A DNA stretch of 64,000 nt from positions 491,374 through 555,373 of the forward strand of contig OZ025806.1 in NCBI GenBank assembly GCA_964019425.1, written 5' to 3'. Under the pieces are notes generated by a model. That model saw only the letters and a program-made list of their open reading frames with translations. It had not been told where the DNA came from and did not search any database. This document shows positions 2,339-62,249 of the stretch, piece after piece (the stretch's first letter is position 1; every line of letters begins with the position of its first letter). The translations under genes and the position numbers were made by a program. Source of the DNA: Flectonema sp. DT1601. Its lineage: Eukaryota > Euglenozoa > Diplonemea > Diplonemida > Diplonemidae.

Positions 2339-4105
2339 TTAGGCCGCCCCTCTGAACAATTCCGCTGCCAAGAGTCTATCCAGAGGAGGACTATATTTTA
2401 TGTATTTCGTAACAGGTCGTGAAAATGGTAGTTTCGTATATTTAAGAAATGCCTCGTAAGAAGGATTGAGGGATCTCGCAATCCCTCGTAAAAGTTGAGA
2501 CTTTAAATCCTTATTAGGAATTTGATATGTGCGTTCTTCATTCAATCGAATTGTAAGTGATTCATTGAACAATTTAAGACGTTTTTTAATCCATTCACGA
2601 TCATCTGAAGATGGTGATGATCGTGGTTGAAATGAATCCTTCAAAGGGTGAACAACCCGACCCCATAATTCTTTCACATACGCAGCTACTAAACTCGCTA
2701 CTTCCAAATCCAACGATGCTGCAGTGTCATCGACCCAACTAAGACCCAACTTCCTAATCGACTCTGCAAGGTATTGAATATTGTTCATCCTGAATAAGTA
2801 TGATAAGGCTTTTTGTTTCTTCTTTTCAATTAATATATTGGCCCTAGTGCCAACTGTCTCGGACACTATTCTGTAAACGTTTTCAACATAGTCTCTAAAA
2901 GTAGCTGTTTGACTGTGCTTAAACATCACATAGTCAAACATATCAGAACCGTATGTCTCGTTAATGCGATTTACTAGGTGAGCAACTTGAACAGTAATTT
3001 CAAAAACTGTTCCATCTGAAGGAGTCTCAATGGCTGGATTCATAATCTCTTCGCAGTATGCGGTTGCTAATTTTGCGATTCTCACTTCGATTCCTTCCGC
3101 TAGATTATCCCAATTCTGTTTAGGATTCTGTGCCATTCTGATGTGAGGAATAACAGTCCAATCTTCTTGAAATGCCTGCAGCAAATCCAAGTGTAAATAT
3201 AGTTTACCAATTGTACTTACATTCGTCTTCGAAGCAGAAGTAACTCTCTCTATGACCATATTAAGCTGGTAGAAGGTATCAACATGTGGACAACCACTCT
3301 CACTTTTAATATAAGAATCCCACTCTTCTTTAAATACTTCTATCGCTAAGGATGTCGCTGTTTCAGCCAGCATTCGATAATAACGCAGTAACGTTAGAAT
3401 GCCGTGAGAGCCGGGGGCGTATACTTTTTTTTTAGCTTCGGCACTCACTTCAGCAAAACAACTCTTAAGACTTTTTTCCATTATCTTTCCAACATGTTGG
3501 GCGAAGTCTGTGAGATGGTCAATGCCGTGCATTCTACGAGCGAGTTCGTACAGGTTCGACGCTTCCTGACGAGAAATAAATGAAACTTCTGCAGGAAGAC
3601 GATGTTGTCCATCAGGACTTTTAGCGAAGTGGAAAGCCTTCAACTGCGATGTTAAGATACCCCTAAATCTGTTGTCCAGAACGATGGCGGCTTCGGATAA
3701 AAGATCTTCTTGTTCTTGTAGTCGTTTTGCAGCTGCAGCATCTGCGGTTGACTTTTTAAGGGAACGCGCGTATCTCACCGCCTCTTGCAACGCATCACAA
3801 CTGGCTAATAATTCAGGCAGCTCAAGAGTTGCTCCCTTCTCAAGTTGAACCCTCGCTTTTGAACTGTCGTTAAACTTATCAGCTACTTTTACAACAGTTC
3901 TTTTAGTCGCTTCTATGTTCTTAGCTTGAGTTTGTAGCTGTCGCATCTGTTCGCTGAGTTCTTCAACACCTCTCTTCAAACCTCCGATATTTTCATTGTA
4001 CGTAACCAGCTTATGACATACTTCCATTTTATTCTTTTTTATATTAGCCAAGTGAGTCTCAAGCTGTGACAGCGTATCAGTTGAGTCGACAGCCGACATG
4101 TTCAT
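2339..4105 (-). CDS. EXO70: Exocyst complex subunit EXO70
   Basis: The 588-residue product ends in an EXO70 signature: a segment with LSYLFRMNNIQYL and the C-terminal KYIKYSPP...ELFRG motif, where EXO70 proteins carry the basic patch that binds phosphoinositides. The first 110 residues are coiled-coil-like, as expected for the N-terminal rod. EXO70 tethers secretory vesicles to the plasma membrane as part of the octameric exocyst. I chose the ATG at 4105 (MNMSAVDS) because the open frame upstream (to 4402) reads through the neighbouring gene's 3' end and encodes an implausible Cys-rich stretch, and because a splice acceptor (CACTTCAACAG) ends at 4116. Only 89 bp separate this ATG from the stop of the upstream gene. 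Length agrees with fungal and animal EXO70 (about 600-700). Confidence 0.88.
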   Translation of the reverse strand: MNMSAVDSTDTLSQLETHLANIKKNKMEVCHKLVTYNENIGGLKRGVEELSEQMRQLQTQAKNIEATKRTVVKVADKFNDSSKARVQLEKGATLELPELLASCDALQEAVRYARSLKKSTADAAAAKRLQEQEDLLSEAAIVLDNRFRGILTSQLKAFHFAKSPDGQHRLPAEVSFISRQEASNLYELARRMHGIDHLTDFAQHVGKIMEKSLKSCFAEVSAEAKKKVYAPGSHGILTLLRYYRMLAETATSLAIEVFKEEWDSYIKSESGCPHVDTFYQLNMVIERVTSASKTNVSTIGKLYLHLDLLQAFQEDWTVIPHIRMAQNPKQNWDNLAEGIEVRIAKLATAYCEEIMNPAIETPSDGTVFEITVQVAHLVNRINETYGSDMFDYVMFKHSQTATFRDYVENVYRIVSETVGTRANILIEKKKQKALSYLFRMNNIQYLAESIRKLGLSWVDDTAASLDLEVASLVAAYVKELWGRVVHPLKDSFQPRSSPSSDDREWIKKRLKLFNESLTIRLNEERTYQIPNKDLKSQLLRGIARSLNPSYEAFLKYTKLPFSRPVTKYIKYSPPLDRLLAAELFRGAA

Positions 4106-17134: not shown

Positions 17135-22868
<5,734 letters not shown>

Positions 22869-50128: not shown

Positions 50129-53100
50129 TCAATACTTCCTTCCTAAAACCCTCAGAGACTGGTAATAACTTACATAAGTTGATATAAGTACTTTATCAAT
50201 ACGAGGAACCGGAATTGGTTTTCCTATTTTCAAAAGATCAGTTTGAGCCTGTGAAGCCACAACGGAAGAACTATTCTCAAACACATCATCAGAAATATTA
50301 AAAAGAGGAGACACCACTCTTTGAAGTGCCTGAGAAGTTGAATCAGAACAGAAATGATCGTGAAGACGAGACTTCCACGTCGATAACTCAATGCGATGCA
50401 TGAGTAAGTGATGTTTTGAATGCATGTGTGAAATCACTGAGTTCCACTGCATACTTCCTCCAGATAAATGATACACTTTACCACTTGAGACTGCCTCACT
50501 TGACAATCCAACGATTATCTTTGAACAATAATCAACAGGAAGTAAACTGCACGGTGTTTGTAAATCAGGTGCAGATTTCATAAGCAAAAAAGCCAACAAG
50601 AGTCTTTCACTGATGTTGTTTACGTTAGTCACACCTGTTAAAGCTGATCCGGTGACGTTGTTGAGACGGAATATAGTCACATCGATTCCGAGTGAGTTCA
50701 TCTTTTTAAGAAGATTCTCACAAACGAAATCTGACATTGCTCCACCAGTCGTAATACCGCTCGGAAGTGATGACCCGTTGCAATTTGAATTGATTATTAC
50801 TTCTGGATGTGATGATGGAATTACACCACCAGCAAGATGAGTCGCAAATACTATTTTCTTCTTCCGCAGTTGAACAACCAGAGATAAAATAGTTTTCATT
50901 CCTTCAATACTTAACAATCTCAGTAGTGAATAAGATAGAGAGCTGTAATTGAAGGTATTACCCACCAAGTGATAGACAATAGAAACGTCAGAGCATAATT
51001 GATCCCAATGGCACCGTGAGATTCCCAAATGAGGATGTTCTGCGTTACCTAACAATATGACGATAGTACCAACATTGATTAATTTATTTAACAGGTGGCT
51101 GTCCAGTTGGTATTTTGAAAATGATTTTCGAATTCGATCAACTCCGTCTGAGACACTCCTCGCTCTGACAAGACAATAAATTATAACGTCTCTCTGAGTT
51201 GAATCTTTTCTTTTCATTTCCACCATCAAATCATTCAGGACAAAGGAAGCAATAAAACCAGTAGCTCCAGTTAATAAAACATCACTGCGTCTCTCGCTGT
51301 TTAATTCATCTGAGTAGTTCTCAACAAACGAGTCAATATTCAGATCGTTTTTCATCATTTCGATCTCTTTCAGAGAAGGCTTGCTTCCTTCTTCTTTATT
51401 GGTTTGTTTTGAAAATCTCTCTACGTACGATGCCAGTCTTTTCGGTGTTGGATTTTCTAATAAATTAATAAGCTGTAAAGGAACACTGAGTGACAGCATT
51501 GAATTTATCATTTTAATGACCCTGGTCGCCGTTGTCATGTCACCTCCGCAATAGAATAAAGTGTCACCGCAACTCACGGATATTGACACATCGTTTCCAA
51601 GTGATTCAGCAAACGCAAGGCAAATAATGTGTTCAACATAGGAACGTGGTGGGATGAATTTGATTCTAAAATTCGAAGGGTTGCTTTGAGAAGTGATCAG
51701 TCGCAAGGATCTCCTCACATCTGATATTGGTAAATGCTCCAAAACTACAATCCTATCAATCTGTATGTGAGGTGATATAACTCCGACTTGACTTAACCAA
51801 ATTTCATTTATGATGTCTTTGTTAACCAACGAGTTTAATGATTTTTGAACATAGCAAATTAAGCGTCTCTCACCAACTGAATCATCCTTTGTTATGACGA
51901 TAGCTTTTGAGATTATGTCCTTATTGAGATGTAATATAATTCTTTGAAGATGAGCGCAGTCGATATGATGACCTCTTCTCTTAGCAGTTAGAGCCTCTTG
52001 TGATCCAATCTGGATAATTTTATTATTTATTATCTGTGCGAGGATTCCTGTTCTGTATACTCTACCGTTCGACCATTCAGAAAATTTACTCCGAGTTGAA
52101 CTTTTTTGTTTTTTGTGTATTGAATTCCATTTAAAGTGTTTTGACTTTATTAGAAGCTCACCTGGAACAGAAAAATCAGTTTGCTGTTTGAATTTATTAA
52201 TTGTCAGAAGTGAGTACAGTGGTGTTGCCTCACCTAGTATGAATTTAACACCGTCACGATCCTCAATTTGATTTGAATTTTCTTTTTTATTAATTCCAAT
52301 GTTAGCAGCGACCACACCAAAACACTCCGGTAAAACAAACAAAGACGATACAACAGTTTTTTTTAACTTTTCAATACTCAAATTAGGTGCCGTTGAAACC
52401 AACAAATGACGAACCCCCAACTCATCCGCAATATCTACCAATCCAGAAGAATACCGTCCGGCTATGACAGTGATGTTAGAAGTAGATATAATAAAGTTAT
52501 ACGATTCTTGTAATGTTTTTTGAGTATTTGATGATAATAGTCGAGCATCGGAACAGCAAATTGATCCGCCAATTAATAAAAACGGAAGTACATTAGAAAC
52601 AAACAGAATTAGAGAATTTGAATGACCCACTGCGACCTCAGACAAAAACTGATTGATGAATCCAAGACAGTCAGTTTGTTCAATTTGAAAAGTACTGCTG
52701 AACCACTCACAATGTTCTCTGATCACATCTTCGGTGTGATAAATTGAAGTCCCGTCATAACAATTAATTGAGAAGACATTATTTGATGAAAATTCATTTT
52801 TATCAAAATTATTTTTTAAATGTTCTTCAACACCAATAATCATATCCCGATTAATTAAAAGATGATCATCTGACTTAGTAGTCCAATGCTTGTGAGATTC
52901 AGTGCCTGACTGAACTACGAATGTCTTTCCTGATAAGATTGCTGCTATGACGCATAATAAATGGGAAACGTCAAACCTTGCGGCAGATGAATTTTCTATA
53001 CACACTGATGTCTTGTCAGAATTCTGTATTATTGACGCTAACGATATGGCTTCATCAAAAAACGATTTAAACGTCACTGTTGTGAAATTTCCTGTTCGAT

Positions 53101-56100
53101 GATCAATTTCTTTACAGATAATTCGATCAGAGAACTTTTCTGCTGAAGATAGAAGTAGATGACGGAGTTGAATATTGTTGTTTAATTCGTGTGAGGGTGA
53201 GACTGGTTTATTGGGTTCTGAGTTACCAACAACACGAACGTCAGCGATAATTTGACTTCTTATTACAGACAGATCTCTCAACCAAAAACAAACATGTTGT
53301 AGAAGAATTATTGAATTTTGATTACTCACTTTCGATGAATCGTATCTTAGTTTCATGACTGACTTTGAGTTATGTCGTTCCAACGTGAATGAGAAATTTT
53401 GTAACGATCCGACTGGCATGTTGGTATCAACAATATTGTGATCATCATATAAATCTCTGTAGCTGACTACAATGTCATAGAGAGGATTGGAGAGCAGAGT
53501 TCTATGTCGATGAACTGTTTTTATAATTTCACTCTCTGGAACAAAATTATAACCAACAGACTCAGAGTACTGCCGCGACAGAGTTGACAACAACCCTGCG
53601 AGACTGTCTTTACCTTGAAATGGAAATTTTATTCTCATTGGAAGAATTTTGGTATAATTCCCCAGAGTATTGAAATCGTTATACGACTCTCTTAAATTAT
53701 CCCACAACCCAACCATCACATCACACTGTGATGTATATAAGTGAAATATCGATGACACCACAGCAGTTAAAACAACTGACGGAATAGTACTGAACTCAGA
53801 TGATATTTTTATCAAATTCTCAACTACGCAATCATTTACAACAATCGATTCAGTGTTGTAATTTCTGATTTGTTGATCTTCACGTATCCAGTCCCATGGA
53901 AAAGATAGATGGCTCGATGACCCAAACAGCAATCCCGTCCAATAGCTGATCGCATTATCACCAATAGGACTTTCTAAAATAGATTTTTGACTAAACGTGA
54001 AATTAGTATATTTACAAACACTCTCACTGATGCTGTCATTCGATTTCAGTAACGAGATTATCGAACTCAGAACAGTTCTGAGACCCTCATCATCAGAGAA
54101 GACAGGGTGACATGCTAATATTAAATATTTCTTATCCAAAACAGATGAAGTAATTAAGTCTGTCCCATGCAACACAGTATCACTGTAGAACTTTAAAGTT
54201 GTGATGTATTCCTTAACTGAGGTCTGGATATCCTCATCGGTGGTGGTGGCTGAGGTAACAACTATTTCTCTTTTCAGATTCACATCATCGCTTACTTGTA
54301 AAAACCCATCACAAAATTCAACTTGAAGAAGTTCCTGTGTTGATATGATGTCGTTCATTACCGATTGCACTTTTAAGACGTCCAGTTCGAATCCGACATC
54401 AGAACAGATGTAAACTACGCGACTCTCAAATTTGGATGTGAATTCAGAAGATAAATACTCCATTTGAATGTGAGAAAGTGGATTTCGATCAGAAAATGAC
54501 GAGACAGGTATTTCGACCAACGGTGAAGTTTTTCTAATCAAATCAACGTGAGATGCTATTTTACGAAGAGTCGAAGCGGAAAGTAAATCCCTCGGAGAGA
54601 ACTTGACTTTAAAAAAAGAAGCAACGTGACAAGCAATCCTCCTCAAGGATACAGAATCACATCCAATCCCCAACACAGGACTTTGTATACTACTGAGATT
54701 ACTTGACCAGAATCTACTCAGAAGTAATAATTTAATTTCAGTGAGACTCTCTGGCTGAAACCTAACCACCAACAGCGGATTCAAGATCGATTGTGAAGAA
54801 ACTATGTCACTTGAATATTGAAAAGTTTCTTCTTCTGATTTAAACTTTTTAAAAAACATATCAACATCAGATGGTTGACATATCTCATCATCGTCGTGAA
54901 CTGGAATATGCGGAAGTATATTACACACAGCATTGGTTAAGGTTGGTTTCCTTGATGATTTCGTTAAAATAAAAAAATCAGGAACAACACAACCCACATG
55001 ATGATCTTTAGAAAACTCTCGCAGTTCAATTCCCGTTGCGGATTCCGTTAGTGAAACGATTGCAACCAGATACTCAAATGATTTTCCGTTATTAACATGC
55101 GAGTGTTTCGTTACAGATGCAAAAATAATTTTTGGATTTTGTTTCAAATTCCTTACAATGTCGCAAAGGTTAACCACAACACCTCTGTAGGTAATCATTT
55201 GTTTATTATTATCAGTTTGAGTGTGGTTAAAAATATATCCTTTTTGATTCCATGAACACGTCATATCACAACAGAATGATAGCAGATGATCATCTGTTGA
55301 ATTTAAATAACAAAAATTTTGAGATTCAACATCAGAAACAGTTACGACACCCCCACCTGATAAAAACAATTGACCGGATGCGTACAAGGGAATCATCTCA
55401 CCTGATGGCCCAACAATAGTGGCGGTAATGCCTTCAGATGGTTTGCCTAAAGGGAGATTGTCAGTAGTCTTATTTTCAATCTCATTTAAGTACCGATGAA
55501 CATCACATTGAAGGGCTGGTATTCCTGAACATTCGTATCCACTACAACTTGTTATTCTTTTGAAACAAATATTTTGATTTTTTGAAACCAGTTCACATAT
55601 TTTACTACTCTCGTTCTGATCACAACTAAACCAAATTACAGAAACTGATTTCGGAATTGCGTCATTCTGATACAGATGGATCAGGTACCATGATGGAATA
55701 ATAATATCAGTCGGACTGATGTCTTTAAAAATATCTATTTCCAAATTCCGATGATCATTTATACCGTTTTTGTATAACACTGAATCACATAGATAGAACC
55801 CACCTCCACTGGTGATACATCCGAAAAGCTCAAATGGTGTAATTGTCTGACCGATCAAAGCTAATTTAGTGCAGTTGTTCCAATTTAGTTCATCAACAGA
55901 TATTTTTGTACAGTAATGGTGAAGGTCAGTGTTTGTGAATTTCTGATGAATAGAACCCGTAGATGGATTGATAGTAAAGAAAACTACGTCGGTGGCATCT
56001 CCTGTATCCTCTATGTGATCGACATTGTCAGTTATTTTTATTTTTTCAATATTTACAATACTTGTAACTGAATTGTTGTCATTTTCATCGAAGTCCTCGT

Positions 56101-59100
56101 CATCGACTAGGAGATAATTTATTTCTAGTTTTTCACAAATTTTAATTACTTCTTTGCGATCAAACAAATCCGTCCTCACTATTGAAAAGGAAATCCTCGA
56201 CAAGAGGCAAGCGAATACCGTTTTCACTATATCAACGGCACTGGTCATGTATATCACAGATTTCTTTCCAGGATTTTGGATTGTCGATAAGTAAGAAGAA
56301 ATAGATGAGCTGCTGTCCATCAAACCAGAAATAGTAATTGGCTGAACAGACTTCACTCCTCGTGGGTAAATTACAACTGAGTCAGAATCTGTCACCAATC
56401 TTTGTATTAAAGCATTAGTAACAGTCCAATTGGTATTGGATGAAACATGTACTTGAGACCAATCCCTCAGTTTTAAAGTACTATTTTCATCAAGCAAAGA
56501 TTCAGATCGCTGTAATATAAATCCAACAGACGAATCGAATGAGAATTCTCTACTCTGAGAGGTAAATGAAATGAGTTGGGTGTACGAATCTAACAATGAA
56601 GAAACCTCTTCTACGGAGTACTTTTCATTATCAAATGTGATTTGAATATTTAATTCTCCGTTGGTGCCTTCTGTCATACTGGTTGATAATGTGTATCCGT
56701 GTCGTGATCTGGAATGATAATTTTGTGTGATGTCGAGAGAGTTTAATTCAACATTCTTCATTCGTAAAGTTGAGTTTGGAAAATTCAAAAGATTTCTGGA
56801 TAATTTTTGAGGTGTTTGGGTCAAGTCAACAAAACACTTTTCACAATCGGTTTCATCTTCTCTGAAATGTTGATCATAAAGTCCCTGCGATAAAGAATCA
56901 AACGTACTATTACAAAGTGCTCGAAAACTAAGCGATCGAGAAGGTGTCACAACCACTGAGTGAGTACTTGAAAAACAACCAACCGTAGACCCAAACTCAA
57001 CACGACATCTATTCGAAAATGGAAATGCCATTTTGACTTCGTCACTACTTTCAAAGACAGATATCACAATAATATAAAGTGTTAAAAACACACTTGTTCT
57101 TGTCACGGCACATTCTTTTGCTATTCCCTGAATCGACTTTACAGAATCAGAAGATATAATTTTATTTATTGATCGCATCGTTGATCTACTCAAAGATTTT
57201 TTACCAATCACACCAACTCCACTATTGAGTTTTGCGTGATCACCCGCCAAAAGCAACAGTCTTTTTTCATACTGTGTGTAACTCACATAAGGTAAAGCGT
57301 GTTGTGCTGAGGTTGATTTTGGACTGGTCAAAAGTGATGATTCAGCTTGAGTTGTATAACAACACTTTAAATCTCTCATAATGATGGCGACAGAGTAATC
57401 ATCAGCACAGATTGGATGAGTTACGAGCTGGAATATCGTTGAGTTTTTGAAATGAAAAAGACGAATCCTTACAAGACAATCCTCACTAAGCTCAAATGGT
57501 ATTGATGCTTCAGAAACTAACAGAGACGATGCCTCTTCACTCTGACTGCAGATATCTTCACACTGCAATTCACTTATATTTAAACAAACAGAATCAGGTG
57601 TCGTGACTTTCTGATAAATCGATTGATCTTTTCTCAAATGATACGTTGTTCTTAGCATTCCATGATTGCTAACAATTCTGTAAAGGCAATCAGCAAGTCT
57701 CTTTAAATCCACAACACCAAGTTGAATAACCGCATGAATAAACTTATTTAAGTCACCAGGATGTCTCATGCTGCAGTGCCTATTGTATAACTCTGCTTGT
57801 GAGAGTGAGACAGCTGAAGGTTCACTTGCATATGGAGAAATTGGTATTGGTCTTTTCCCCTTTAGTTGAGCTATATTTACTAAAAGTGATATGCCGCTAA
57901 CAGACGCATGTTCGAGTACTTCTGAAATGGAAATAACACAATTCAACTTTGAGCATATCCTTCCAACTATCGTCACCGCTGTTAAAAAGCTACCTCCGTA
58001 ATAAAAAATAGATTTTTCAACATCAATTACCGTCAAGTTCAATTCCGTTAAACAGATACTTTTAACGCTGTCGAGTACCATTGGCGGGGGCGGTTGAATT
58101 CTTTCAATCATAACATCTCGTGACTTTCCAGTTGGAGAGCTACTTGGCGAAGATGAAGCGCTTGAGGCATTTTCAATGTTCTGCAACAGAAACCTACTCC
58201 GATCCGAGCTTATAATTTTTATTTTTTCTACTTCTCCAGCAATATAGGACGCAACCTTTTTCCTATCGACATCACCTGTTGGTGTTGTAGGTATTTTTTT
58301 TATTGTGAACAAGAAGCTGGGGATTAATTCTGAAGTCACTAACTTTGTTATTTCATCTCTGATAAACTCCACTGAAACTGTTGTGTGTCGTCTAGTCTTG
58401 AGAACAACCGCCAAGTGATGCTCGTGTTGGATCGCCACGCAGTCTTCAACAGCAGAAATACTTCTCAGCAACACTTCAAAAGCATGAAACGAAATCCGAC
58501 TTGAAAATGAAAATATTTGCATCTGAGAAGGATTCTTTCGTAAGTATTGAATATGGTTTTCATCATTAATGGTAACGACATCTTCACATGATGTGATGTG
58601 TTCACTACTCTGATTATGACAAAGGCATAATGGAGAATGTTGTCGACTACCCGATTTCGGATCTTTATTTCCATCTTTGAAAGCTGACTTAACACCAGTC
58701 CAGTCAGGTAGCAATGCATCAACGTCATGCAATGAAAAGTTTGGTACAATTTGGGCAATCGGTGCTGCAGTTTCACTACACAAACAACTACCCGCGCAGT
58801 GTAGTGTACCCTCAACTCCCTTTGGAACTTGTTGCATGTCAGTATCAAGTATTTTGCAGTAGTTTCCTGATATAGGTTGGCCGAGGGAAGCAATATCGCT
58901 CTCTCTCCATGTTTCACAGGCTCCTAATAATTTAATACTGGAAACAATAGTTTGTTGACCTCCGTAGTAGTCTACGTACACTGAACTAAAAGGAGCATTT
59001 TGTAAAAACAAAACTATCGCTGGTGACATTCTCAATCCCTCTCCACAGATGATGATATCCCTGAGACTAGATGGTCTGCAGTTTAGTATTCTACTCACAG

Positions 59101-61732
59101 ATGATAAGTCGCTCAGATAAGACGGCGATACAAATATTCGTTCAATCCCAAAGTGAGAGATATAACTACCAAGAACAGCCGCATGAGACTCTACCTCCGT
59201 ATCAACAACACATAAAGTACCTCCACTATTAATGCACGACCATAACAGAAGTGGATAAACAGGAGATGTGATCTTTGCGTTGAATAATATCCGAACACCC
59301 GCAGCGATAGGTCTGTTTTCACACGACCACAGCACTTCGTTTATTATACTACTGTGAGATACTATAGTTGCGTGATTGTAAATATTTTGACCACCTCCGA
59401 GATCGCTGTTTTGTAGAAATGAAGGAAACGACATCAATGCTGCATGATCATCATCATCATCATCATCATCGCCATTATTATTTGAAAGGTTACAACCATC
59501 GTACGATGTGAGGAGATCACATATAACTTCCTGGACTAAAACTTTAGTTTGATGATTATCACTACTATTCCACGATAGTAATTCATCAACGTGTGGATAT
59601 CTTTTTGATGTGATAATTGAATGAAGTCTGCAGTTATTAATCACACTCTCAACACAAGAAAAAGGTGAATTCGAATCCAAAGGAATACACACGCCTCCCG
59701 CTTTTAATATTGCCACCAACGTCAGTGTACAGAAATAACCGTGTGGAATCAACACGGCTATCCTTTTTCCGGTTAAACTACCAACACCACTACCCGACAG
59801 CATTGATTGTGTGAATCGAGCGTATTGATTTGCTTGTGAGTTTAATTTTTGAAAACTAACTGCGATTGACCCTTCAAGCAACGCAGTCACTTCAGGAAAA
59901 TCTTCTGCAGCCTGTTCCAATAGTTGAGTTATTTTTGTGTAAGTGTTTTTGACGGGTATTTGATTGACTGATGACAATACTTTTTGTATAGATGCTGCCT
60001 GAGCAGTTGACACAACTTCCAGATTGTTTATTTCATTATTTTGTAAAACTTTAACGAGAGTGTGAATGTAGTTCTCGCACATGTCTTGTACCCTAACTGG
60101 ATCGTAAGCCTCACAATAGACAAGTGAACCTTGAAGTGTTCCGTTTTTTGTATAACAGACGAGCTGCATGTCGAATAAAGACTGAACGTAGTCATCAGCT
60201 AGCAGCTGACATGGTTTTGCACCGAAGCTTAGAGTGTTGTCAGAACTAGGTGTACTTAAAGTGAATGGCAACACTCGATACCCAATTTCACTATTTTCAA
60301 AAAATTGAAATCCAATTCTGCAAAAACCACTTCCATCACCACCACCACCACAATTTGCAGATTCCTCTATCGATGTTATCTTTTGAAGTATTCTGTAGAA
60401 TGGAGTGTGGTCATCAGTGGTCTTAATGGAGCTCAAGATCGATTCCGCCGAAGAGCAAATTTCATCAAAAGTATCCCCAGAAGGAGAGATCGGAATGATA
60501 TTATCAAACATTCCTAAACCTGGTCTTGTGTCAGGTGATTGCTGAAAACCAATAGAAACATCCCTTCGATTACAATACTTTCGCAACAACACTATCCAAG
60601 TTGCTAATAAAACTGTTTCTTGAGAAATTTTATTTTCACCCGAAAACGAAGCAATCGTATCAACCAATTTTGATGAGAACACTATTGGAGAAGACTTACA
60701 CTTGCTACCTCTTTTTGAAGGGTACGTTCCACTTGAATTCCGTTTACCAGGAAGTTTTAAAGAAGTAATATTGGTAAACACCGTAGACTTTGAAGGGTTT
60801 TTATTTTCAGCTGATAAAAATTTTTTCCAGTAAATTATATCCGAACAATGCGATGAGACGGTTTCCATATTTTGATGAGTTTTTGGACCAGCAATCCTAA
60901 CACCGGTCCCGGTGTAGTCACCTTGACAGAATACATCTCCAAACAGGTAGTCGTCTGGGGGGGAAGTGGTTTCTTGAGCTTCACATGTGCGGAGGGTTTC
61001 TTCGCATGAGTTTGATGTTTTCTTTTTTATGTTTAGGTTGAAATTTGTCGTATATCCATGACACAGATCTTTAATAAAGATGTCAACAGATTTCAAATCA
61101 CATAAAACCGCGTGAAAGGTTATTATAATCGAATCCGAATCATGGCCTCTAAAAATACCAACTCTGAATAGTGATTTTGATAAATCAGAAAATGGTATTG
61201 TCATCTGTTGAACAAGAGCATTCCAGGATGACTTTTGATCATCAGAGATTGTAATATCGAAGTTAAAAGACCCAACAGAGTGTTCCACGAGCATCATATT
61301 ATCGACGTCAATACCAAGTCTAAGTATTGGATGGTGATGTGATAAGCTTATCACAATCTGTTTAAGTCTAGGAATATCAATTCTACTTCCTAAAGCAGCT
61401 TTCCAACACAAAACTTGAGATGAAGCTGCCAGCTGTTCAACCACAAACTGCTGCATGCTACTGAGTAATAATTTATTTTCATTTTCCTTGTCATTATTTC
61501 CAATTGTTATTTCCGAAGCATTCGATTTCTTTCTCAGTGGAGCGACAGATATTTGTACAGAGCAATCAACACAAGTATTATCTGGATGCCTCTTTGCGAT
61601 TATTTTCATATCACTGGAACTACACCCTCGACAAATCGTACGAAGGCAGCTTCTACACCAATGCCGCCTGGTGATCAAACTGAAGTCTTTCTGACATATA
61701 CAACATTTTTGTTGACGACGATCGACAGGCAT
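50129..61732 (-). CDS. Giant FYVE-C-A-T-C-A-T-C-A-T-R protein, degenerate NRPS-like (3867 residues)
   Basis: A single ORF of 11.6 kb starts at ATG 61732; the acceptor CTTCACTAG ends two nt upstream, with a TTAACTAAT branch-like motif nearby. Residues 9-58 are a FYVE zinc finger: CxxC (10, 13), RRHWCRSC (R23 H24, C26, C29), CxxC (34, 37) and CxxC (54, 57). Approximate following domains: C1 85-520, A1 600-1160, T1 1205-1280, C2 1295-1740, A2 1770-2290, T2 2315-2385, C3 2400-2850, A3 2880-3330, T3 3355-3430, thioester-reductase-like R 3480-3860. The catalytic residues are largely absent. C motifs read H207-AVLC-D, H1439-PICA-DD and H2542-PVFS-DD (second His lost). T motifs read GGSF (S1248 shifted), GCDS (S2360 kept) and GGDM (M3399). 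A1's A10 Lys is D1154. R has TGATGFIA but G3664/D3668 replace Tyr/Lys. Confidence 0.88.
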   Translation of the reverse strand: MPVDRRQQKCCICQKDFSLITRRHWCRSCLRTICRGCSSSDMKIIAKRHPDNTCVDCSVQISVAPLRKKSNASEITIGNNDKENENKLLLSSMQQFVVEQLAASSQVLCWKAALGSRIDIPRLKQIVISLSHHHPILRLGIDVDNMMLVEHSVGSFNFDITISDDQKSSWNALVQQMTIPFSDLSKSLFRVGIFRGHDSDSIIITFHAVLCDLKSVDIFIKDLCHGYTTNFNLNIKKKTSNSCEETLRTCEAQETTSPPDDYLFGDVFCQGDYTGTGVRIAGPKTHQNMETVSSHCSDIIYWKKFLSAENKNPSKSTVFTNITSLKLPGKRNSSGTYPSKRGSKCKSSPIVFSSKLVDTIASFSGENKISQETVLLATWIVLLRKYCNRRDVSIGFQQSPDTRPGLGMFDNIIPISPSGDTFDEICSSAESILSSIKTTDDHTPFYRILQKITSIEESANCGGGGDGSGFCRIGFQFFENSEIGYRVLPFTLSTPSSDNTLSFGAKPCQLLADDYVQSLFDMQLVCYTKNGTLQGSLVYCEAYDPVRVQDMCENYIHTLVKVLQNNEINNLEVVSTAQAASIQKVLSSVNQIPVKNTYTKITQLLEQAAEDFPEVTALLEGSIAVSFQKLNSQANQYARFTQSMLSGSGVGSLTGKRIAVLIPHGYFCTLTLVAILKAGGVCIPLDSNSPFSCVESVINNCRLHSIITSKRYPHVDELLSWNSSDNHQTKVLVQEVICDLLTSYDGCNLSNNNGDDDDDDDDHAALMSFPSFLQNSDLGGGQNIYNHATIVSHSSIINEVLWSCENRPIAAGVRILFNAKITSPVYPLLLWSCINSGGTLCVVDTEVESHAAVLGSYISHFGIERIFVSPSYLSDLSSVSRILNCRPSSLRDIIICGEGLRMSPAIVLFLQNAPFSSVYVDYYGGQQTIVSSIKLLGACETWRESDIASLGQPISGNYCKILDTDMQQVPKGVEGTLHCAGSCLCSETAAPIAQIVPNFSLHDVDALLPDWTGVKSAFKDGNKDPKSGSRQHSPLCLCHNQSSEHITSCEDVVTINDENHIQYLRKNPSQMQIFSFSSRISFHAFEVLLRSISAVEDCVAIQHEHHLAVVLKTRRHTTVSVEFIRDEITKLVTSELIPSFLFTIKKIPTTPTGDVDRKKVASYIAGEVEKIKIISSDRSRFLLQNIENASSASSSPSSSPTGKSRDVMIERIQPPPPMVLDSVKSICLTELNLTVIDVEKSIFYYGGSFLTAVTIVGRICSKLNCVISISEVLEHASVSGISLLVNIAQLKGKRPIPISPYASEPSAVSLSQAELYNRHCSMRHPGDLNKFIHAVIQLGVVDLKRLADCLYRIVSNHGMLRTTYHLRKDQSIYQKVTTPDSVCLNISELQCEDICSQSEEASSLLVSEASIPFELSEDCLVRIRLFHFKNSTIFQLVTHPICADDYSVAIIMRDLKCCYTTQAESSLLTSPKSTSAQHALPYVSYTQYEKRLLLLAGDHAKLNSGVGVIGKKSLSRSTMRSINKIISSDSVKSIQGIAKECAVTRTSVFLTLYIIVISVFESSDEVKMAFPFSNRCRVEFGSTVGCFSSTHSVVVTPSRSLSFRALCNSTFDSLSQGLYDQHFREDETDCEKCFVDLTQTPQKLSRNLLNFPNSTLRMKNVELNSLDITQNYHSRSRHGYTLSTSMTEGTNGELNIQITFDNEKYSVEEVSSLLDSYTQLISFTSQSREFSFDSSVGFILQRSESLLDENSTLKLRDWSQVHVSSNTNWTVTNALIQRLVTDSDSVVIYPRGVKSVQPITISGLMDSSSSISSYLSTIQNPGKKSVIYMTSAVDIVKTVFACLLSRISFSIVRTDLFDRKEVIKICEKLEINYLLVDDEDFDENDNNSVTSIVNIEKIKITDNVDHIEDTGDATDVVFFTINPSTGSIHQKFTNTDLHHYCTKISVDELNWNNCTKLALIGQTITPFELFGCITSGGGFYLCDSVLYKNGINDHRNLEIDIFKDISPTDIIIPSWYLIHLYQNDAIPKSVSVIWFSCDQNESSKICELVSKNQNICFKRITSCSGYECSGIPALQCDVHRYLNEIENKTTDNLPLGKPSEGITATIVGPSGEMIPLYASGQLFLSGGGVVTVSDVESQNFCYLNSTDDHLLSFCCDMTCSWNQKGYIFNHTQTDNNKQMITYRGVVVNLCDIVRNLKQNPKIIFASVTKHSHVNNGKSFEYLVAIVSLTESATGIELREFSKDHHVGCVVPDFFILTKSSRKPTLTNAVCNILPHIPVHDDDEICQPSDVDMFFKKFKSEEETFQYSSDIVSSQSILNPLLVVRFQPESLTEIKLLLLSRFWSSNLSSIQSPVLGIGCDSVSLRRIACHVASFFKVKFSPRDLLSASTLRKIASHVDLIRKTSPLVEIPVSSFSDRNPLSHIQMEYLSSEFTSKFESRVVYICSDVGFELDVLKVQSVMNDIISTQELLQVEFCDGFLQVSDDVNLKREIVVTSATTTDEDIQTSVKEYITTLKFYSDTVLHGTDLITSSVLDKKYLILACHPVFSDDEGLRTVLSSIISLLKSNDSISESVCKYTNFTFSQKSILESPIGDNAISYWTGLLFGSSSHLSFPWDWIREDQQIRNYNTESIVVNDCVVENLIKISSEFSTIPSVVLTAVVSSIFHLYTSQCDVMVGLWDNLRESYNDFNTLGNYTKILPMRIKFPFQGKDSLAGLLSTLSRQYSESVGYNFVPESEIIKTVHRHRTLLSNPLYDIVVSYRDLYDDHNIVDTNMPVGSLQNFSFTLERHNSKSVMKLRYDSSKVSNQNSIILLQHVCFWLRDLSVIRSQIIADVRVVGNSEPNKPVSPSHELNNNIQLRHLLLSSAEKFSDRIICKEIDHRTGNFTTVTFKSFFDEAISLASIIQNSDKTSVCIENSSAARFDVSHLLCVIAAILSGKTFVVQSGTESHKHWTTKSDDHLLINRDMIIGVEEHLKNNFDKNEFSSNNVFSINCYDGTSIYHTEDVIREHCEWFSSTFQIEQTDCLGFINQFLSEVAVGHSNSLILFVSNVLPFLLIGGSICCSDARLLSSNTQKTLQESYNFIISTSNITVIAGRYSSGLVDIADELGVRHLLVSTAPNLSIEKLKKTVVSSLFVLPECFGVVAANIGINKKENSNQIEDRDGVKFILGEATPLYSLLTINKFKQQTDFSVPGELLIKSKHFKWNSIHKKQKSSTRSKFSEWSNGRVYRTGILAQIINNKIIQIGSQEALTAKRRGHHIDCAHLQRIILHLNKDIISKAIVITKDDSVGERRLICYVQKSLNSLVNKDIINEIWLSQVGVISPHIQIDRIVVLEHLPISDVRRSLRLITSQSNPSNFRIKFIPPRSYVEHIICLAFAESLGNDVSISVSCGDTLFYCGGDMTTATRVIKMINSMLSLSVPLQLINLLENPTPKRLASYVERFSKQTNKEEGSKPSLKEIEMMKNDLNIDSFVENYSDELNSERRSDVLLTGATGFIASFVLNDLMVEMKRKDSTQRDVIIYCLVRARSVSDGVDRIRKSFSKYQLDSHLLNKLINVGTIVILLGNAEHPHLGISRCHWDQLCSDVSIVYHLVGNTFNYSSLSYSLLRLLSIEGMKTILSLVVQLRKKKIVFATHLAGGVIPSSHPEVIINSNCNGSSLPSGITTGGAMSDFVCENLLKKMNSLGIDVTIFRLNNVTGSALTGVTNVNNISERLLLAFLLMKSAPDLQTPCSLLPVDYCSKIIVGLSSEAVSSGKVYHLSGGSMQWNSVISHMHSKHHLLMHRIELSTWKSRLHDHFCSDSTSQALQRVVSPLFNISDDVFENSSSVVASQAQTDLLKIGKPIPVPRIDKVLISTYVSYYQSLRVLGRKY

Positions 61733-61736
61733 TTCT

Positions 61737-62249
61737 AGTGAAGCAAATTAGTTAAGGATTAGAGGGATGACAATTCTGAAAGGTTAATAAGTTTCTACAG
61801 TTTGTTCTGACTGATGTATTGTAATAAAATAGTGTAGCCGACTGAGGAGGGGGTGATGATGATTTTAATGTGAATAAATAAAATGAAGAAAGAAAAGAAA
61901 ACAAATGACAGATTACGAAAAGAAATAATATTTTCTTCTTCTGATAACTGAAGCAGGTGAATCAGAGAGAGAGAAAAGACTTTGTGATGTAACGATGGTA
62001 TAAAATATAAGTTTGTTTGTTTTTTTTGATATTTTTTTTTTCCTCAGCAGCTGAATAGAATCTCCATCAGAGTTTTCCTCAGCCTCGTCTTTCGGATCCC
62101 AACAAGTTTACTTTGCTTCAAATCCTTTTCAAATAAATCGGATTTGTTATGAGAAGGATGACATGCGATGTGAATCTTACATCAGGTAAATGCTTTGAAG
62201 AATTTACTAATTTTGTTTTCTTATAACCATTAACCTAATTCATTCATGA
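61737..62249. other. Spacer between the NRPS-like gene and the helicase
   Basis: About 510 bp without a gene. It includes an inverted repeat CAAATCC/GGATTTG (62119-62125 with 62140-62146) and a pyrimidine-rich TTTTTTTTTCCTCAGCAG on the plus strand at 62032-62049 that resembles an acceptor in the wrong orientation for the genes. Confidence 0.4.

Follow-up and report, generated by a model that had tools for sequence, protein, structure and literature searches.

A single open reading frame of 3867 codons in the diplonemid Flectonema sp. DT1601 encodes a protein that begins with a FYVE zinc finger, continues with three condensation-adenylation-carrier (C-A-T) modules of the nonribosomal peptide synthetase (NRPS) type and ends in a thioester-reductase-like domain (R), and in which 10 of the 11 essential catalytic residues scored are replaced. 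The reading that we favor, at a probability of about 0.58, is that this protein is a pseudo-NRPS, namely a FYVE-headed three-module line with a reductase whose chemistry would have been lost and which would have been kept as a protein in a diplonemid lineage. It would thus be a retained, non-enzymatic polypeptide, possibly used as a scaffold or recruitment platform.

The window analysed here is a stretch of 64,000 nt of contig OZ025806.1 (491,374-555,373, labelled C27:491374-555373), and the genome searched along with it comprises 89.5 Mb in 92 contigs. Its uL2 protein most likely places this genome among the diplonemids: in the protein collection searched it is 99% identical to an EukProt transcript and 86% identical to one labelled Rhum, which we read as Rhynchopus humris, and its nearest PDB matches are chain 11he_L8 (459.6 bits) and then the Euglena ribosome 6zj3 (363.8 bits). 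The reading frame occupies window positions 50129-61732 on the minus strand and contains no internal stop, compared with approximately 266 stops expected in a frame of 3867 codons from base composition, and the remaining five frames across the same interval (50129..61732) hold 192-382 stops each. The open frame reaches only five codons further upstream than the start used here (3872 versus 3867 codons). The acceptor-like stretch in front of the ATG (61735..61760, Table 1) is probably a spliced-leader addition site, with trans-splicing inferred from the clade; diplonemid introns are dealt with in excerpts of PMC12621601, which also describes Paradiplonema papillatum as open to genetic manipulation. 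Because one antisense frame scored +0.024 and the intact NRPS control C28a scored -0.117, codon-usage scoring along the frame (+0.030 bits per codon) was uninformative, and it lent no support to our reading.

The FYVE finger and the first condensation domain (C1) lie within this one frame with no interruption between them, so the fusion of FYVE to NRPS is independent of any gene model. That an assembly or gene-model artefact misjoined a FYVE piece to an NRPS is accordingly highly improbable. The identical protein also has an entry giving 316,765 bases as the longest contig, against 1,177,056 for C27, which may hint at a second assembly. Non-repeat frames of at least 200 aa listed for the window numbered 21, every one of them on the minus strand, including the frame studied here and its upstream neighbour. 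The window also contains a TTG-type trinucleotide array of approximately 2.5 kb (19260-21760) in which several frames are open, and genes of the GTP_EFTU family form tandem arrays in this genome.

Table 1. Features of the 3867-codon frame and its start, in window coordinates.
Feature	Residues	Position	Strand	Sequence character	Basis
3′ acceptor-like stretch		61735..61760	(-)	branch-like, pyrimidine-rich, CACTAG end, two bases before ATG	read from the sequence
FYVE zinc finger	4-61	61550..61723	(-)		Pfam 33.1 bits; EEA1 alignment
C1	88-580	59993..61471	(-)	H207-AVLCD-L	HMM; hhalign 99.5%; AlphaFold2 model
A1	610-1157	58262..59905	(-)	P-loop replaced, TGDVDR at A10	HMM; hhalign 100.0%
T1	1219-1288	57869..58078	(-)	GGSF	HMM; hhalign 89.2%
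C2	1307-1731	56540..57814	(-)	H1439-PICADD	HMM; hhalign 99.8%
A2	1760-2292	54857..56455	(-)	strongly eroded	HMM 19.6 bits on part; hhalign 95.5%
T2	2324-2399	54536..54763	(-)	GCDS	own HMM -1.9 bits; hhalign 42.9%, E 4e-5
C3	2417-2850	53183..54484	(-)	H2542-PVFSDD	HMM; hhalign 98.8%
A3	2855-3344	51701..53170	(-)	strongly eroded	HMM 28.8 bits on part; hhalign 95.7%
T3	3359-3439	51416..51658	(-)	GGDM	HMM; hhalign 97.1%
R	3482-3865	50138..51289	(-)	thioester-reductase-like	Pfam PF07993; own HMM 146.3 bits

The domain order (FYVE, three times C-A-T, R) was recovered from Pfam, custom domain HMMs built from bacterial matches together with the genome's own NRPS domains, and hhalign taken together, and the C-A-T order is that of a catalytic NRPS. 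A preliminary description made from the letters alone had proposed an intact frame with this architecture, and the reading of the frame and the combined searches confirm it. For the whole protein, the Pfam scores were 248.2 bits for Condensation, 96.6 for NAD_binding_4, 92.5 for AMP-binding, 51.4 for PP-binding and 33.1 for FYVE (cut-off 27.8). The five families proposed there for a search were therefore all found, but the second and third adenylation domains are so eroded that neither the A2 nor the A3 stretch, searched by itself, matched an NRPS family in Pfam. Both were recovered by hhalign at full profile length at the probabilities given in Table 1; control alignments with two unrelated proteins of the window and six shuffled sequences did not exceed 1.0%. 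With the custom HMMs, C1, C2, C3, A1, T3 and R were clear, T1 scored less (10.8 bits), and A2, A3 and T2 were weak. The best solved relative of R in the PDB is MxaA (4u7w, 117.5 bits).

An AlphaFold2 model of residues 1-600, covering FYVE and C1, reached a mean pLDDT of 67.3 and a pTM of 0.69. Within residues 81-590, 31 of 51 ten-residue blocks had a mean pLDDT of at least 70, and the FYVE part, for which the model's alignment held no relatives, stayed below 50. Loss of catalytic residues with retention of the fold, as in a pseudoenzyme, is thus seen by residue alignment and hhalign, and for C1 also in this partly confident model.

The losses concern every type of catalytic domain. The condensation motif HHxxxDG keeps its first His (H207, H1439 and H2542) and its Asp (D212, D1444 and D2547) in all three domains, and the catalytic second His, which a working NRPS needs, in none (A208, P1440 and P2543). 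The carrier Ser that such an enzyme likewise requires is present only in T2 (S2360 of GCDS), with F1249 in its place in T1 and M3399 in T3. The ATP loop (P-loop) of A1 is replaced and immediately preceded by an Asp-rich run, and D1154 stands for the Lys of its A10 motif; at the P-loop and A10 Lys places, A2 and A3 are changed, gapped or unaligned. In R, the Thr-Tyr-Lys set of active SDR-type thioester reductases reads H3632, G3664 and D3668. The stretch TGATGF is kept, and the last Gly of TGxxGxxG is A3495, which makes nucleotide binding by R uncertain; this Gly is kept in one of the two R domains used as own-genome controls.

The motifs given in the preliminary description (HAVLCD, HPICADD and HPVFSDD in C1-C3, GGSF and GGDM in T1 and T3 with GCDS in T2 alone, TGDVDR in A1 and G...D for Y...K in R) were all reproduced by HMM alignment, with D1154 falling in the A10 Lys column and G3664 and D3668 in the columns of Tyr and Lys. 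We rejected the idea that the catalytic residues sit at shifted positions, an outcome that the same description had named as speaking against it, because none was placed elsewhere by the models from bacterial matches or by those from the genome's own NRPS domains; in T1, S1248 misses the Ser column, which holds F1249, by one residue.

The NRPS genes of the same genome gave a different picture. Among these controls, the second His was kept in 19 of 20 C domains, the A-loop Lys and the A10 Lys each in 22 of 22 A domains, the carrier Ser in 22 of 22 T domains and the Tyr and Lys in both R domains (4 of 24 C and 1 of 23 A pieces fell below the score limit and were left out). The sole exception among the C domains is that of C28b, with the motif HRSVLDA. 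This locus (C28:716715-721595, L026 and L027) is a C-A-T-R frame of 1627 aa in which the motifs of the A-loop, T and R are intact, and its C motif resembles that of the dead X-domain.

We also counted how many conserved columns (at least 80% in a background of 393 C, 421 A, 281 T and 7 R domains) each domain retains. C1, C2 and C3 keep 24, 20 and 20 of 50 columns (lowest other own-genome C domain, 25/50) and A1 keeps 41 of 97 (lowest other A domain, 53/97), with A2 and A3 at 14/97 (54 gaps) and 19/97 (44 gaps). The carriers T1-T3 keep 5, 3 and 9 of 15 (lowest other T domain, 7/15), and R keeps 51 of 93 (lowest other R domain, 55/93). Only T3 reaches the range of the intact NRPS domains of the genome; every other domain of the protein falls short of it. 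The essential residues were retained in 1 of 11 cases and the other conserved cells without gaps in 172 of 347 (Fisher p 0.007), a comparison that is descriptive rather than proof because the 11 residues were picked with knowledge of the list in the preliminary description, and for which cells were entered by hand, A2 and A3 were left out as too gapped and the R background comprised only 7 domains.

The loss of synthesis together with an open polypeptide is, at the level of sequence, well supported by four observations: all catalytic classes are affected, the frame is intact, non-catalytic columns are better kept than catalytic ones, and the NRPS genes of the same genome are nearly all intact. 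We regard it as rather unlikely that the protein still works in part, with T2 loaded with phosphopantetheine by a PPTase of the genome and charged in trans, the remaining domains serving in docking and R perhaps nucleotide-bound. Such partial function would be consistent with S2360 in GCDS, with the three ACPS-family matches and several intact NRPS genes of the same genome, and with TGATGF in R, but T2 is the weakest carrier match (Table 1) and the last Gly of the R motif is an Ala.

Whether the frame is maintained or decaying was addressed through the tree of C domains, in which the end branches of C1, C2 and C3 measure 3.29, 2.14 and 3.57 changes per column and the median is 0.9. If stops had been tolerated throughout, approximately 69-115 would be expected per C domain, and none is observed; the estimate uses branch lengths from a quicker tree, near-equal to those of the main one, and a ratio of 0.07 stop changes to each missense change, and it is an upper one because catalysis may have been lost only partway along each long branch. 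The grouping of C1-C3 has low support (70/63), in a tree that carried long-branch warnings and whose bootstrap had not settled. C28a and C28b likewise have long branches (2.53 and 2.18) and retain the motifs of the A-loop, T and R, which means that loss need not follow from divergence alone, but the C domain of C28b did lose its second His.

A pseudogene in slow decay, with a frame open by chance or recency, could account for losses that extend to every domain, including FYVE, and for the heavy erosion of A2 and A3. This reading is quite unlikely given the absence of stops (approximately 266 expected) and frameshifts over 11.6 kb and C-domain branches of 2.1-3.6 changes per column, and it sits poorly with the retained Asp of the C motifs, the retained TGATGF of R and the acceptor-like site before the ATG. 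The open frame on such long branches argues against decay. The 14 and 19 of 97 columns kept in A2 and A3 and the position of C1-C3 just below the lowest own-genome domain also fit slow erosion, however, and count against a pseudo-NRPS. We consider that the 3867-aa polypeptide is likely maintained by selection. Thus, of the earlier proposal that synthesis was lost and the polypeptide maintained, the first half stands, with every catalytic class affected and the frame intact, and the second half is likely only.

The FYVE finger retains all eight zinc-ligand Cys residues. Canonical FYVE domains contact PI3P through the motifs WxxD, R(R/K)HHCR and RVC, and alignment with EEA1 showed that these read MPVD, RRHWCR and NTC here. 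Arg22, Arg23, His24 and Arg27 are kept, as is the preceding hydrophobic pair (LI). Because all three PI3P-contact motifs are altered, PI3P binding cannot be assumed, and binding of the canonical kind is doubtful from the sequence; the PI3P-binding endosomal scaffold suggested in the preliminary description is unproved, with Met for the Trp of WxxD in addition to RRHWCR and NTC. The genome contains 88 FYVE matches, 85 of them above the cut-off. At seven of its own loci, HHCR and the Arg of RxC were kept in 7 of 7 and WxxD in 6 of 7, although these were the readable ones, by a pattern demanding HxCR, among the eight best-scoring loci and therefore lean to the canonical form.

The erosion of the finger itself weakens the membrane step of our reading. 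A maintained non-catalytic protein in which FYVE is only a structural zinc module with no membrane role would explain why WxxD, RRHHCR and RVC are altered while the eight Cys residues are kept. We think this unlikely because Arg22, Arg23, His24, Arg27 and the LI pair are also retained. Furthermore, some FYVE fingers of variant sequence are known to bind other lipids.

Some other FYVE matches of the genome lie in very long frames, one of 4094 aa and one of 5203 aa, the latter just below the cut-off; the first 895 aa of the 4094-aa frame contain no further Pfam domain above cut-off. In addition, a 437-aa frame (L038, C85:62715-63719, minus strand) joins a NAD(P)-binding dehydrogenase-like domain to a FYVE domain with HHCR and RVC and adds a further FYVE-enzyme fusion to that of the 3867-aa protein.

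The fusion of FYVE to an NRPS was found nowhere else in our searches. A full-length search returned 224 proteins, and among the best 120 FYVE occurred only in the query; the N-terminal 260 residues, compared with 392 candidates, matched only themselves, so the homologues with the same FYVE head that the preliminary description had hoped to find came down to the protein itself. Both searches cover proteins of 0.55-1.75 times the query length, a range too high to include fragmentary transcripts of an orthologue, and no orthologue was found among proteins of that size. Searched against the genome that encodes them, residues 1-600 matched themselves and two places spanning the FYVE part alone; a second copy was not found. 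The lists of further FYVE frames and of NRPS frames in the genome (14 of 55 candidates scored for the latter) do not overlap, and the N-terminal 1868 residues had no match among phage records. In the literature searched, which included work on NRPS in Euglenozoa and diplonemids and was judged by title, we found no FYVE-NRPS or FYVE/AMP-binding fusion, in line with the earlier remark that none was known. The words nonribosomal, NRPS, polyketide and FYVE do not occur in the main text of the Diplonema papillatum genome paper, in the portion available (PMC10161547).

Several other long multidomain frames were seen in this genome. On C85:246001-311845 (plus strand; L017-L023, L129), four long open frames of 10,080, 8,611, 392 and 2,868 aa have C domains split across frames 1/2 and 2/3 and an A domain split across frames 3/4, with GT-AG intron-like borders, and we read the four as one hybrid gene of about 21,900 aa. 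Its start is PKS-like (ketoacyl synthase, acyltransferase, KR and three carrier stretches) and is followed, by our count, by 18 domains each of the C, A and T types; the complete C motifs observed are HHxxxDG except for CHIITDG, HHLISDE and HHIIMDA. A 3497-aa frame (C28:882571-893061; L024, L025) contains AMP-binding, flavin amine oxidase, PP-binding, Condensation, PP-binding and NAD_binding_4 domains, and a 2623-aa frame (C27:86418-94286; L030) contains three acyl-CoA-binding and two AMP-binding stretches, a ketoacyl synthase and an acyltransferase.

The closest functional parallel that we can offer for a pseudo-NRPS is the X-domain of glycopeptide NRPSs, which the excerpted text of PMC6565677 describes as condensation-inactive, with HRxxxDE in place of HHxxxDG, and as recruiting P450 enzymes. 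The second His and the Gly of the motif are replaced both there (HRxxxDE in Xkis, same excerpt) and in C2 and C3 (HPxxxDD), but the X-domain is a single domain within an active synthetase, whereas in the 3867-aa protein every domain is affected. With multimodular (C-A-T)n-R synthetases the protein shares three C-A-T modules followed by R, all nine C, A and T domains and R being recognised, T2 weakly; it differs in the loss of essential residues from the C domains, A1, R and two of three T domains, in the erosion of A2 and A3 and in its N-terminal FYVE. With FYVE proteins of the EEA1 and VPS27 type it shares the eight Cys residues and an RRHxCR core, but the Trp of WxxD, the second His of RRHHCR and the Arg of RVC are replaced. 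The 1627-aa C28b resembles it in its T-R end and its changed C motif, but has intact A-loop, T and R motifs and does not occur in the list of FYVE matches. Among kinases and proteases, pseudoenzymes are a familiar phenomenon. We are aware of no other multimodular NRPS that is dead throughout yet retained as a protein, and in the collection of papers searched none combined pseudoenzyme with nonribosomal peptide synthetase.

We propose that, in a diplonemid lineage, a three-module C-A-T line with a terminal reductase gained an N-terminal FYVE finger, and that the chemistry of adenylation, condensation and reduction was lost while the protein was retained. The C folds might then act in the manner of the X-domain, and the folds of the assembly line would by analogy be docking surfaces positioned by the FYVE finger, which could attach the protein to a membrane or a partner, not necessarily via PI3P. 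T2 may still carry phosphopantetheine, given the three ACPS-family matches in the genome, and R may still bind nucleotide. More tentatively, a whole NRPS line may have been turned into a membrane- or partner-tethered non-catalytic scaffold, its folds forming interaction surfaces, one carrier perhaps in the holo form and FYVE supplying the location.

The intact NRPS genes of the same genome provide an internal control for the pseudo-NRPS reading. If that reading is true, a megasynthase without chemistry has nevertheless been kept open, which would mean that the folds of an assembly line can be recruited to serve as scaffolds, and the protein may represent a link between a machine of secondary metabolism and the endomembrane system.
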